A DNA stretch of 64,000 bases. Source: Pseudoduganella namucuonensis. GTDB lineage: Bacteria; Pseudomonadota; Gammaproteobacteria; Burkholderiales; Burkholderiaceae_D. The position numbers and the translations under genes are program-made. Below, piece after piece: positions 7,246-46,494 of this stretch (the stretch's first letter is position 1; each line of letters begins with the position of its first letter). Under the pieces are notes generated by a model that had not been told where the DNA came from, did not search any database, and saw nothing but the letters and a program-made list of their open reading frames with translations. The DNA lies in the NCBI RefSeq assembly GCF_900116645.1, contig NZ_FPBO01000002.1, positions 62,001 to 126,000 of the forward strand, written 5' to 3'.

Positions 7246-7260
7246 CGTAGTCAAACTACA
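7246..7260. promoter_or_regulatory. HexR-like operator between GH13 alpha-glucosidase and POT gene
   Basis: CGTAGT-CAA-ACTACA matches the palindrome TGTAGT-N3-ACTACA at 11 of 12 arm positions. It lies in the AT-rich 283-bp divergent region (7081-7363). A second imperfect palindrome with central CG, GAAAACGGTTTC at 7263-7274, abuts it and looks like a LacI-family site. No other clear element was seen in this region. Confidence 0.6.
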
Positions 7261-7363
7261 TAGAAAACGGTTTCAGTGGCAGAAACACAACTTGCATATA
7301 CCAGTTGCCAAGCGCGGCACCTTCGGCATAGCATCCCGATCAGCTAAAACCCACGAGGACAAT

Positions 7364-8959
7364 ATGGCCAATCCACACACTGAAACCGAGGCGGGCAACG
7401 GCCCAATGCCCCGGCAAGTGCCGTTCATAATCGCCAACGAGGCGTGCGAACGGTTCAGCTTTTACGGGATGCGCAACATCCTCACGCCCTTCCTGATCAG
7501 CACCCTTCTGCTGTTCGTGCCGCAGCCCGACCGCGCCAGCGAGGCCAAGCACGTGTTCCACACCTTCGTCATCGGCGTGTACTTCTTCCCGCTGCTGGGC
7601 GGCTGGCTGTCCGACCGCTTCTACGGCAAGTACAACACCATCTTCTGGATGAGCCTTATCTATGTGGCGGGCCACGCCTGCCTTGCCGTGTTCGAGGACA
7701 ATCTGCAGGGCTTCTATCTCGGCCTGCTGCTGATCGCGCTGGGCGCGGGCGGCATCAAGCCGCTGGTGTCGGCCTTCGTCGGCGACCAGTTCGACGCCAC
7801 CAACAAGAAGAAGGCCAAGGTGGTGTACGACATCTTCTACTGGACGATCAACTTCGGCTCCTTCTTCGCCTCGCTGCTGATGCCCCTGTTCCTGAAGAAC
7901 TACGGCCCGGCCGTGGCCTTCGGCATTCCCGGCGTGCTGATGGCCATCGCCACGGTGATTTTCTGGTCCGGCAAAAAACGCTACGTGCACATCCCGCCGG
8001 CGCCGCCCAATCCGGACTCCTTCACCAACGTCGCGCGCACCGCGCTGCTGGCGCGCCAGCCCGGCCAGTCGCGCCCCGGCCTGACGGTCGCGGTGGTCGG
8101 CGCGCTCGGCGCGCTCGCCTCGCTGTGCATGTCGCCGTGGTGGGGCTTCGTCATCGCCGCCTGCCTGGCGCTGGTGCTGCTGCTGGCCTTCGGCGGCATC
8201 GGCACCGGCATGCAGCTCGAACGCGCGCGCGGCCTGCATCCCGACGCCGCGGTCGAAGGCGTGCGCGCCGTGCTGCGCATCCTCATCGTGTTCGCGCTGG
8301 TCACCCCGTTCTGGTCCCTGTTCGACCAGAAGGCCTCCACCTGGATCCTGCAGGCCAACAACATGGTCAGCCCGCAGCTTTCGCTGTTTGGCTTCGAGTT
8401 CAAAGTGCTGCCGGCGCAGATGCAGGCCGTGAACCCGCTGCTGGTGATGCTGCTCATCCCGCTGAACAACCTGGTGATCTTCCCCCTGCTGCGCGGGATC
8501 GGCATCGAACCGACCCCGCTGCGCCGCATGACGACCGGCATCGCGCTGTCCGGGCTGTCCTGGATCATCATCGGCTGGATCCAGCTGTCGATGGACGCGG
8601 GCACGCCGATGTCCATCCTGTGGCAGCTGCTGCCGTACGCCGTGCTGACCATGGCCGAGGTGCTGGTGTCCGCCACCGGCCTCGAATTCGCCTACAGCCA
8701 GGCGCCGCCATCGATGAAGGGCTCGATCATGAGCTTCTGGATCCTGACGACGACGGTGGGCAACCTGTGGGTGCTGATCGTGAACTCCAGCGTCAAGAAC
8801 GAAGCCGTGCTGGCGCACATCGCCACCAGCGGCATGAGTTCGATCGCCTTCCAGATGTTCTTCTTCGCCGGCTTCGCCCTGCTCACCGCCGTCGTCTTCG
8901 GCATGTACGCGGTGCGCTACAAGATGGTCGACAACTACCGCAAGGAAGTCATCCGCTAA
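7364..8959 (+). CDS. POT/PTR2-family proton-dependent oligopeptide transporter
   Basis: 531 residues with about 12-14 membrane helices. The POT signature is present near the N-terminus as ANEACERFSFYGMR (ExxERFxYYG motif), followed by a GGWLSDRFYGKYNTI loop between helices. Members import di- and tripeptides with protons across the inner membrane. The ATG at 7364 has GAGGA 5 bases upstream; in-frame codons further upstream run through the promoter region. Its position next to a maltose enzyme and a HexR-like box is odd for a peptide carrier, so a different substrate cannot be excluded. A strong terminator follows at 8981-9017. Confidence 0.88.
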   Translation: MANPHTETEAGNGPMPRQVPFIIANEACERFSFYGMRNILTPFLISTLLLFVPQPDRASEAKHVFHTFVIGVYFFPLLGGWLSDRFYGKYNTIFWMSLIYVAGHACLAVFEDNLQGFYLGLLLIALGAGGIKPLVSAFVGDQFDATNKKKAKVVYDIFYWTINFGSFFASLLMPLFLKNYGPAVAFGIPGVLMAIATVIFWSGKKRYVHIPPAPPNPDSFTNVARTALLARQPGQSRPGLTVAVVGALGALASLCMSPWWGFVIAACLALVLLLAFGGIGTGMQLERARGLHPDAAVEGVRAVLRILIVFALVTPFWSLFDQKASTWILQANNMVSPQLSLFGFEFKVLPAQMQAVNPLLVMLLIPLNNLVIFPLLRGIGIEPTPLRRMTTGIALSGLSWIIIGWIQLSMDAGTPMSILWQLLPYAVLTMAEVLVSATGLEFAYSQAPPSMKGSIMSFWILTTTVGNLWVLIVNSSVKNEAVLAHIATSGMSSIAFQMFFFAGFALLTAVVFGMYAVRYKMVDNYRKEVIR

Positions 8960-8980
8960 GCCGCCCCGCCCCGAAAAAGC

Positions 8981-9017
8981 GCCCAGGGCTATTTATTCCG
9001 CGCCCTGGGCTTTTTTT
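8981..9017 (+). terminator. intrinsic terminator of the POT gene
   Basis: GCCCAGGGC (8981-8989) pairs perfectly with GCCCTGGGC (9002-9010), followed by a run of seven T (9011-9017). It separates the POT gene from the GH49 genes. Confidence 0.9.
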
Positions 9018-9029
9018 CGCCCTCCGAAT

Positions 9030-9108
9030 CAATCGATTACGAAGATTTGTCAACAAATACGCAACAACCTTCAAATTTGTTTACGCAATCGATTTCGTAA
9101 ACGATAGA
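9030..9108 (+). promoter_or_regulatory. operator/promoter cluster for the GH49 genes
   Basis: Three symmetric elements lie in the 193-bp leader: CAATCGATTACG at 9030-9041, the perfect palindrome ATTTGTCAACAAAT at 9045-9058, and a 22-bp palindrome with one mismatched pair at 9080-9101 centred on AATCGATT. The word CAATCGATT recurs 56 bp apart (9030 and 9086). Central-CG palindromes of this form are typical of LacI-family operators. A weak promoter (TTTACG, 17 bp, GATAGA) would place the last palindrome between the -35 and -10 boxes. These motifs differ from the HexR-like boxes elsewhere in the window, so a separate regulator, not encoded here, is likely. Confidence 0.55.
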
Positions 9109-9211
9109 CTTGCCTTCCCATTCACCGATCCGGAGGCACGCACCCTCGACCCCCTTCCCGCGCCATAAAGCATCACTTCCAATGTAGAAGTCATCGATAG
9201 CGGAGACAAAC

Positions 9212-45148: not shown

Positions 45149-45264
45149 TCGAGTGTCAATGAATGTTCAGGAAACCTACGTATTAAAGGGTGTTTCGTAG
45201 CTCGTACGCCCCACACGCATGGCGCTCACGTTGTATTTGAGCTACAGGCCGCATGGGACCATGC

Positions 45265-45279
45265 TGTAGTAGGACTACA
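45265..45279. promoter_or_regulatory. perfect HexR-like operator upstream of the TonB receptor
   Basis: TGTAGT-AGG-ACTACA matches the palindrome at all 12 arm positions. It lies 248 bp before the receptor start and 9 bp after the stop of the neighbouring esterase gene. It may act together with the two boxes nearer the start. Confidence 0.62.
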
Positions 45280-45287
45280 TTGTTACT

Positions 45288-46343
45288 TTATTTTGCAAGC
45301 AGGAAGCGCAGCGGGATGTCCACCCGGCCGCCCCACGCGGCCTCCGTGTGGCCATCGCCCGGGTAGGCCTTGACGATGCAGTCGATGCCGTCGCGGTAGC
45401 CCTTGGCGCGCAGCAGCGCGTTGACCTGGGCCTGGTACGGGGGATAGAGGGCGTCCAGGCCGCTGTCGCCATGGTCGAAGTACAGCTTGTGGCCGCCGGC
45501 GCGCGGCAGCTTGCGGCTCAGCCAGTCGAAATAGGCGGAGGCGATACGCACGGGGCGCATATCGTCCTTGTCATACAACATGTTGAAGTTGACCGTGATG
45601 GGCCAGTGGGTGGACAGGCAGCCCGCCCCGGCGAACACCTCGGGGTGGCGCGCCACCGCGTACAGCGACACCACGCCGCCCAGCGAGGAACCCATGATGA
45701 AGGTGTTGCGGCGGTCGCGATGGGTGCGGAACTGACTGTCGATGGCGGGCTTGAGCTCTTCCACGATGAAGCGCAGGTAGGCGTCCGTCAGCGCGGGGGC
45801 GGCCTCGGCCTCCCGCTCCGCCTCCGCCACGTCGCCGACGGCCGCCCGCGAGGCGGACACGCCGCGCCCGGGCGGCTCCCCGAGCAAGGCCAGGCGCGAT
45901 TCGGGAGTCAATGCCTCCAGCGCCGCCGCCGGCGCGAACTCGCGGGCGCGCTCGCGGCCGCTCCAGATGCCGACGATGATGGTGGGCCGCACCAGGCCGT
46001 CCGCGATCAGCGGCGCCAGCCGCGCATCCACCGCCCAGGGCTTGCCGCCCATCGCGGTGGCGGAATCGAACAGGTTTTGCCCGTCGTGCATATAGAGCAC
46101 GGCGTGGCGCTCGGCCGTCGTGTCATAGCCGGCGGGCAGCCAGACCACGACCTTGCGCGGCGCGGCCAATTTGGAGGGGAAGGCCGGCAACACCACGTAA
46201 CGCCCGCCCGCCGCCTCCGCGGCGCCACGCCCACCCTCCTCCGCGCCAGCGCCATGGACCCAGCCACCGCCCGCCACCAGGGCCGCGACCGCCGCCCTGT
46301 CCGCCATCCAACGCAATGCCGCCCTGCGCCCCGTCCGCCCCAT
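45288..46343 (-). CDS. exported alpha/beta-hydrolase esterase (Fes/esterase D type)
   Basis: 351 residues from the ATG at 46343, preceded by GGGAGTGGGG; an in-frame ATG at 46388 is less supported. The N-terminus GRTGRRAALRW followed by a hydrophobic stretch may be a Tat-type signal. The hydrolase domain has [12 protein letters not shown], the nucleophile elbow GSSLGG and a C-terminal GDGHTEAAW with the likely catalytic His. It belongs to the enterochelin-esterase/esterase D group. It is clearly related to the C-terminal domain of the divergent GH13 fusion at 46515, which shares [18 protein letters not shown] and GSSLGG motifs. The substrate is unknown; acyl groups on glucans are a guess from context. 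Confidence 0.82.
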   Translation of the reverse strand: MGRTGRRAALRWMADRAAVAALVAGGGWVHGAGAEEGGRGAAEAAGGRYVVLPAFPSKLAAPRKVVVWLPAGYDTTAERHAVLYMHDGQNLFDSATAMGGKPWAVDARLAPLIADGLVRPTIIVGIWSGRERAREFAPAAALEALTPESRLALLGEPPGRGVSASRAAVGDVAEAEREAEAAPALTDAYLRFIVEELKPAIDSQFRTHRDRRNTFIMGSSLGGVVSLYAVARHPEVFAGAGCLSTHWPITVNFNMLYDKDDMRPVRIASAYFDWLSRKLPRAGGHKLYFDHGDSGLDALYPPYQAQVNALLRAKGYRDGIDCIVKAYPGDGHTEAAWGGRVDIPLRFLLAK

Positions 46344-46431
46344 CCCCACTCCCGACCGGCCGGCGCGAACCGGCGAAGTTAGCAGCATAGCGCGCGGCGC
46401 GTCATGTACCCAAACTAGCTTTCTAAAACCG

Positions 46432-46460
46432 TTGCGTGGATGCTATTTTCTTTTCATAAT
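46432..46460 (+). promoter_or_regulatory. candidate sigma-70 promoter of the GH13-esterase gene
   Basis: TTGCGT (46432-46437) and CATAAT (46455-46460) are 17 bp apart. Transcription would start near 46467, just upstream of the HexR-like box, which would then act as a block to elongation or initiation. Confidence 0.45.
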
Positions 46461-46479
46461 AAAGGCTTACGAAGTATCA

Positions 46480-46494
46480 TGTAGTACAACTACC
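46480..46494. promoter_or_regulatory. HexR-like operator upstream of the GH13-esterase gene
   Basis: TGTAGT-ACA-ACTACC matches the palindrome at 11 of 12 arm positions. It ends 20 bp before the start codon, just ahead of the ribosome site ACGGAG. Confidence 0.6.

Follow-up and report, generated by a model that had tools for sequence, protein, structure and literature searches.

Conserved palindromes over alpha-glucan genes of Pseudoduganella namucuonensis and a glucokinase-RpiR fusion as their probable regulator

Palindromes upstream of alpha-glucan genes

In a 64,000-nucleotide stretch of Pseudoduganella namucuonensis DNA (contig NZ_FPBO01000002.1; the whole stretch is referred to here as the window, and the host genome is 8.49 Mb), genes for the uptake and degradation of alpha-glucans are preceded by palindromes of the form TGTAGT-N3-ACTACA. 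Comparison with related genomes confirmed that the regulon marked by these palindromes is real as a conserved sequence feature. The palindromes are probably operators of a repressor of the RpiR/HexR type, for which the glucokinase-RpiR fusion protein encoded at 3462-5339 of the window is the most likely candidate. In Gram-negative bacteria, control of starch and pullulan use is generally attributed to maltose or LacI-type regulators. If the present assignment is true, control of outer-membrane uptake and of glucan hydrolysis would be coupled to the initial step of glucose catabolism through a phosphosugar-sensing repressor that is fused to glucokinase, and a protein family so far annotated by domains alone would gain a function.

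The window was scanned for TGTAGT-N3-ACTACA with mismatches counted over the 12 arm positions. The results showed 30 matches with up to three mismatches, as compared to 4.6 (standard deviation 2.3) in dinucleotide shuffles, and none of 100 shuffles reached 30. Nine matches have at most two mismatches (7246, 12973, 13036, 20847, 45073, 45134, 45232, 45265 and 46480), and all nine are upstream of alpha-glucan genes. The 21 matches with three mismatches are all inside called open reading frames (ORFs); two of them, at 20750 and 7124, sit in overlong ORF starts and are both conserved core-promoter palindromes. An earlier note on this DNA had listed nine palindromes with zero to three arm mismatches, and rescanning recovered each of them, including the one perfect site at 45265, which is the sole perfect match in the genome. 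Eight of the nine sites with at most two mismatches were in that list, but 45232 had been missed, as had the weaker palindrome at 7124, and the listed site at 20750 has three mismatches. The placement before alpha-glucan genes stood for all nine, but neither the GH13 gene at 28785 nor either GH49 gene (9212 and 11110) is directly preceded by a site with at most two mismatches. Eight of the nine are outside the mechanically called ORFs; the ninth, 7246, is in the overlong ORF 7037-8959 of a POT-family transporter gene, whose likely ATG is further on, at 7364, and 20750 is likewise in the overlong start of a called ORF. The assignment of sites to genes was corrected in that 45073-45265 are all before the TonB receptor gene and 46480 is between an esterase gene and a cyclomaltodextrinase-esterase gene. 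The palindromes are listed below.

7124..7138, minus strand: weak palindrome TGTATATTGTCTACA with 3 mismatches, covering the -10 (TATATT) of the promoter TTGAAA-17-TATATT
7246..7260, no strand: predicted upstream operator CGTAGTCAAACTACA, between the GH13_23 and POT genes
12973..12987, no strand: predicted operator CGTAGTAAAGCTACA, before pulA; the identical 15-mer stands before pulA in three related genomes
13036..13050, no strand: predicted operator TGTAGCCCTACTACC, before pulA, 63 bp from the 12973 site
20750..20764, minus strand: weak predicted operator TGTTACTTTACTACA with 3 mismatches, covering the -10 of the promoter TTGACA (20784-20779)-17-TACTTT
20847..20861, no strand: predicted upstream operator TGTAGTCAAACAACA, between the MFS genes and the GH31 gene
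45073..45087, no strand: predicted operator CGTACTTCGACTACA, downstream of the TonB promoter core
45134..45148, minus strand: predicted operator TCTAGTTTTAGTACA, between the -35 TTGACA (45159-45154) and the -10 of the TonB promoter
45232..45246, no strand: predicted operator TGTATTTGAGCTACA, 87 bp upstream of the TonB -35
45265..45279, no strand: perfect predicted operator TGTAGTAGGACTACA, 120 bp upstream of the TonB -35
46480..46494, no strand: predicted operator TGTAGTACAACTACC, 20 bp before the ATG of the cyclomaltodextrinase-esterase gene

Conservation was assessed in 77 named loci around relatives of the fusion, one of which (L105) is related to the glucokinase half alone. The 251 kb of intergenic DNA in these loci held 102 sites with at most two mismatches; in the same DNA the reversed pattern gave 17 matches and two other palindromes gave 6 and 9. 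A further 31 sites were in the 1,280 kb of coding DNA. The GH13_23/POT divergon is present in 56 loci and carries a site in 53 of them; the best matches in the remaining three have 3, 3 and 4 mismatches. When 52 of these divergons were anchored on the site, the information content was 1.87 bits per position in the arms and 1.92 in the spacer, and in the ten-base flanks 13 of 14 blocks gave 0.13-0.47 bits and one 0.83. Upstream of pulA, a site within 450 bp was found in 18 of 32 relatives, shuffles leading one to expect 0.28 over all 40 regions scanned; this set comprised 32 of 33 type-I genes, with G091 (contig end) and G021 (partial match) left out, and the L160 site (at -423), counted among the 18, may fall inside a neighboring gene. 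The MFS gene has a site with at most two mismatches before it in 16 of 20 relatives. A second pullulanase gave no site in seven regions of 450 bp above an anchor inside the gene; rescanning the full 1.7 kb, which includes some coding DNA and was done without a shuffle control, gave sites in six of the seven, namely in five genomes with this fusion type and in the fusion-less G119, and not in G001.

Counts over whole genomes behave differently from this local picture. The host genome has 147 places with at most two mismatches versus 534 for the reversed pattern, so that the motif is not over-represented by raw genome count, and the reversed pattern outnumbers it in all 145 family genomes. Since the reversed pattern is commoner, raw counts carry no support, which comes instead from concentration and conservation; our guess is that the TAG triplets of the motif are avoided in coding DNA, which would explain the low raw count. 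At one mismatch or less there are 11 places in the 8.49 Mb, and four of them and the sole perfect site are inside the 64-kb window. In three genomes (the host G000, G106 and G040) 36 such places were found: 19 at alpha-glucan or glucokinase promoters, some of them just inside a called ORF start, 1 before pyruvate kinase (G040, L237:2092; one mismatch), 9 coding and 7 elsewhere. The G040 site on contig C33 was called coding by a 15-mer identical to coding sites in G000, G106 and G133. That the palindromes arose by chance or as a by-product of promoters is hardly credible; the raw count below the reversed-pattern control would fit it, but the matches are far above shuffles, are concentrated in intergenic DNA and form conserved 15-bp footprints in diverged flanks.

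Gene products in the window were assigned by Pfam and NCBIfam profiles; the subfamily label GH13_23 comes from the earlier note, Pfam itself assigning GH13. The genes concerned are as follows.

3462..5339, minus strand: glucokinase-RpiR fusion gene (625 aa), behind GH13_23 on the same strand; assigned by Pfam/NCBIfam; proposed repressor
5458..7092, minus strand: GH13_23-type enzyme gene (GH13 in Pfam), first gene of a presumed operon with the fusion
7364..8959, plus strand: POT-family transporter gene, divergent from the GH13_23-fusion operon
13080..15830, plus strand: pulA, pullulanase-type enzyme, TIGR02103 above cut-off
15894..20784, minus strand: MFS transporter, pgm and alpha-amylase genes, presumed operon; assigned by Pfam/NCBIfam
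20871..23267, plus strand: GH31 alpha-glucosidase gene
39141-40493, minus strand: GH13 gene behind the TonB receptor and halogenase-like genes
40516-42195, minus strand: tryptophan-halogenase-like gene behind the TonB receptor gene
42201..45038, minus strand: TonB-dependent receptor gene, TIGR01782
45288-46388, minus strand: esterase gene
46515..49121, plus strand: cyclomaltodextrinase-like GH13 fused to esterase

The start of the POT gene was read from the sequence as the ATG at 7364 behind AGGA. The called 5' end of the MFS ORF overlaps its own promoter; its true start must be downstream of 20784, because the listed TTG start there is the -35 TTGACA of that promoter. Two tandem GH49 genes of the isopullulanase/dextranase type (9212-11026 and 11110-12936) stand between POT and pulA.

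Palindrome positions on the core promoters

Besides the strong upstream sites, a second, weaker palindrome was found on the core promoter at the GH13_23-fusion, MFS and TonB receptor promoters. The consensus of the GH13_23-fusion promoter, TTGAA...TGTATATT.TCTACAAA, has this palindrome covering the -10. In 43 of 54 GH13_23 promoters the best palindrome downstream of the strong site has three mismatches, as compared to three or fewer in 79 of 1,080 mononucleotide shuffles, and its distance from the strong site is usually 121-122 bp, elsewhere 77 or 111 bp. Among 22 MFS promoters, the 16 with TTGACA and an upstream site within 200 bp were counted and the six others left out; all 16, in a comparison made without a shuffle control, carry a palindrome with three or four mismatches, mostly TGTTATTTTGCTACA, 20-21 bp after the start of TTGACA and covering the -10 (TATTTT or TACTTT); in these 16 the distance from the -35 up to the upstream site is 47-81 bp. 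In each of the three TonB receptor promoters compared (window, G106 and G040), the palindrome lies between -35 and -10, beginning 11 bp from the first base of TTGACA. All three have an upstream site at 120 bp, and two of them have another at 87 bp. In G040 (L234:5371-7968) and G106 (L203:9025-11823) an MGH1-like glycosidase is encoded opposite the TonB receptor, unlike the esterases of the window, and the TonB operator positions are kept.

Given that the core palindromes occupy blocking positions, we infer repression, perhaps helped by looping, as what these promoter sequences point to. The converse, in which the fusion is an activator and the strong operators, roughly 50-120 bp above the -35, recruit RNA polymerase, would suit the position of the strong sites upstream of the -35 at the GH13_23, MFS and TonB promoters, but the same promoters carry the conserved core palindrome in a blocking position. 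In addition, RccR of Pseudomonas fluorescens, an RpiR protein which binds a 15-bp site present as TGTAGTTTTACTACT and TGTAGTAAAACTACA 68 bp apart before aceE, is reported to repress there and to be released by 2-keto-3-deoxy-6-phosphogluconate (KDPG), which lowers its affinity for the site (PMC5489143); activation is accordingly an improbable role on present counts. Helical phasing was analyzed in 46 different site pairs up to 200 bp apart; at a period of 10.5 the Rayleigh R was 0.43 (p ~0.0002), which is only a hint because related genomes supplied the pairs and sites in coding DNA were left in. A sigma-70 scan suggested TTGACT inside the 7246 site as a -35 element, but this candidate was rejected, as no -10 signal was present at 16-18 bp in 49 GH13_23 and 12 MFS promoters; the conserved core promoters are located further downstream.

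The fusion protein, the standalone HexR and the ownership of the sites

The fusion comprises a glucokinase domain (residues 21-330), HTH_6 (341-412) and SIS (464-588), and it is 97% identical to the fusion of Massilia sp. Root351 and 96% identical to that of Pseudoduganella aquatica. The RpiR half scored 65.1 bits for HTH_6 (cut-off 28.3) and 67.6 bits for SIS (cut-off 25), which places it in the RpiR/HexR type. Against the HexR model NF008451 the fusion scored 221 bits, under the cut-off of 296, as did a zwf-linked standalone HexR with 260 bits. NF010701, the bifunctional transcriptional regulator/glucokinase model, has the same order, glucokinase then RpiR in one chain; the fusion matched it with 834 bits over residues 12-597, below the curated cut-off of 920, and four other fusions scored 815-859. 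The glucokinase half aligns to solved glucokinase structures, and the best solved matches of the RpiR half are RccR-type chains (202 bits), of which 8k3b is named RccR/KDPG. KDPG contacts in RccR are given as S139, H148, R152, H164, S183, S185, S188, K270 and R277 (PMC10810197). Six of these nine are kept in the fusion, as S477, H486, R490, H502, S521 and S523; S188 is replaced by L526, and K270 and R277 are beyond the aligned part. The phosphate pocket of the RpiR half thus appears largely kept, and KDPG itself as the effector is uncertain.

To follow the fusion across the family, genomes were classed by score as having this fusion (class W), having a type with 49-55% identity to it (class B) or neither; G032 (truncated), G069 and G102 were classed by hand, and up to eight candidates per genome were scored. 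Over 145 genomes, the 33 that have this fusion showed a median of 1.31 sites with at most one mismatch per Mb, the 32 that have the 49-55% type a median of 1.13, and the 80 without either a median of 0.39; the differences from the last group gave Mann-Whitney p values of 5e-13 and 4e-12 with ancestry ignored. A pullulanase (E up to 1e-100) was found in 32 of 33, 6 of 32 and 1 of 80 genomes, respectively; in G063 and G104 pullulanase and fusion are on different contigs. The fusion-less same-genus genome G133 has 3 sites with at most one mismatch versus 8-14 in seven others, and within the limits applied it has no counterpart of pulA, GH13_23 or the MFS gene. Of the 14 regions upstream of genes related to GH13_23 (up to 61% identity) that were taken from fusion-less genomes, none had a site, which is a weak control because these genes are distant relatives; nor was there one upstream of the host's own GH13_23 paralogue on contig C54. 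The fusion follows GH13_23 directly in 53 of the 77 loci and an amylase gene, directly or one gene later, in 10, with both arrangements in L079 and L085.

Several variants of this arrangement were seen. Two glucokinase-RpiR copies ~8-15 kb apart occur in L071, L074, L079, L085 and L089 and on G111:C80, G011:C37 and G052:C25 (Massilia-group genomes), with one copy per alpha-glucan operon in L079 and L085. A 53-54% identical fusion is beside a second zwf in L192, L198 and L199 (G130, G112 and G033), with two palindromes 72 bp apart before zwf, and L199 has three more sites before a gene group with a GH13_23 gene. In G107, G085 and G042 a fusion of the 53-54% type adjoins pulA.

The fusion is favored as the regulator because it is encoded in a target operon, because its presence tracks the sites in the family, and because the palindrome is bound by the RpiR protein RccR. 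The earlier note, which had pointed to the fusion's HexR-like half as the only such domain in the window, was thus borne out as to the best candidate but not as to sole ownership. That domain is indeed the only one in the window, but the host genome has two proteins with an RpiR HTH, namely the fusion and a standalone HexR-type protein encoded behind pgi-pgl-zwf on contig C71. For this protein to be the main or joint owner of the alpha-glucan sites, with the fusion acting elsewhere or mainly as a kinase, is in our judgment rather unlikely, and it was weighed as follows. Its HTH is similar to that of the fusion (recognition segments SEPTVVRFCRTLGYDG versus SQPTVIRFCRSMGFSG), and identity over the RpiR half is 36%. 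The edd/pgi divergon at the HexR locus (21 loci examined, four of them without one of both genes) carries TGTAGTAAAATTTC, with a TGTAGT half, in 17 of 17, including the fusion-less G133. Weak sites stand before glk in G133; G119, which is without a fusion but encodes two standalone RpiR-type proteins, has two palindromes near a pullulanase gene; and for a member of the Alteromonadaceae a standalone hexR has been described among alpha-glucan genes (PMC12844025). However, all 60 same-genus genomes searched, G133 included, have an RpiR HTH, yet sites and pullulanase follow the fusion; the fusion gene is in the two operons with well-conserved sites; and the edd site has a different right arm, ATTTC. 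On the pgi side the divergon reads GGTAA-A/G/C-TTCACTAC in 15 of 17, the other two sequences ending short there. Given its conservation in the fusion-less G133 too, the edd/pgi site presumably belongs to the standalone HexR. Divergon sites TGTAGTAAAATTTC and GGTAAATTCACTAC, with TGTAGT halves and a different second arm, were recorded at L018:11285 and in L212-L230.

Beyond the edd/pgi half-site, the similar recognition segment and G119, other results also count against the proposed role of the fusion. Thirteen of the 77 loci are without an intergenic site at two mismatches or less, among them the Methylibium loci L100 and L101, in which the fusion is among alpha-glucan genes, and 14 of 32 pulA promoters are without such a site. 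The site densities were compared with ancestry ignored, the fusion-less GH13_23 genes make a weak control, and L526 in place of S188, together with K270 and R277 beyond the alignment, weakens KDPG as an effector. The earlier note had named conservation following another regulator as a refuting outcome; density followed the fusion in the 145 genomes, but the fusion-less G119 keeps two sites. In view of the edd/pgi half-site, the close recognition segments and G119, the motif would be common to fusion and HexR, and some promoters may answer to both; HexR is a possible partner of the fusion at these sites. Two paralogous RpiR proteins with a common half-site in one cell would make a test case for regulon splitting.

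A regulator of another family encoded outside the window, for example a LacI-type maltose regulator, would fit the one site that adjoins a LacI gene (L022). This is a very improbable owner of the sites, as the same palindrome with a 3-bp spacer is a demonstrated RpiR operator (PMC5489143) and site density follows RpiR fusions in two distinct gene contexts. The site in question (L022:6646, contig C44) is a one-mismatch palindrome between the LacI-type gene and a gene group for a TonB receptor, a GH66 dextranase and a solute-binding protein.

Proposed mechanism and related systems

In the mechanism that we propose for the fusion, the effector-free protein would bind the operators as a dimer or tetramer and block RNA polymerase at three promoters, those of GH13_23-fusion, MFS-pgm-amylase and the TonB receptor; it would probably do likewise at POT, pulA, GH31 and GH13-esterase. 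Glucose released from the polymer would be phosphorylated, and a sugar phosphate, KDPG or another, would enter the SIS domain so that the DNA is released. Since the fusion gene is in a target operon, the fusion would control itself. The site at edd / pgi-pgl-zwf-hexR would presumably stay with the standalone HexR, which may also have a share in the motif at other places. A further idea, which we hold to be doubtful, is that of a self-contained flux switch, in which the glucokinase half acting on starch glucose sets the DNA-binding state of the RpiR half. The signal would then be local glucose-6-phosphate or the catalytic state of the kinase, and phosphorylation, instead of a maltose sensor, would open the genes for polymer uptake and hydrolysis, each operon of L079 and L085 carrying its own enzyme-repressor.

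Among known systems, RccR has the same 15-bp operator, also in pairs, and shares the HTH_6 and SIS layout with the fusion, whereas it is without a kinase domain and controls genes of pyruvate metabolism, the glyoxylate shunt and gluconeogenesis (its targets include aceE, aceA, pckA and gap) in place of alpha-glucan uptake and hydrolysis. HexR likewise belongs to the RpiR family, and a standalone HexR-type gene with the conserved edd/pgi site is present in the host genome. Targets reported for HexR are zwf, edd, eda, glk and pykA, to which genes for glucose transport, mannitol, nucleosides and other functions are added in Shewanella and Vibrio (PMC5343134); the Pseudomonas HexR consensus is given as TTGT-N7-8-ACAA (PMC5489143). 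An alpha-glucan locus of Opacimonas immobilis (Alteromonadaceae) has hexR with glk, edd, pgl, zwf and GH13/GH77 genes (PMC12844025). This is a precedent for the gene neighborhood by annotation, and the accessible part of that paper reports neither operators nor a fusion. Our literature search gave no paper on HexR/RpiR operators at starch genes in this group and none on the regulon of the NF010701 family. The regulon that the earlier note had put forward as new for HexR-type regulators would thus, as far as this search went, be new at the operator level, but hexR in an alpha-glucan locus has this precedent. Outside the sugar theme, palindromes were seen before molybdopterin or 2Fe-2S oxidoreductase genes in two genomes (L029:4002 and L232:2060).

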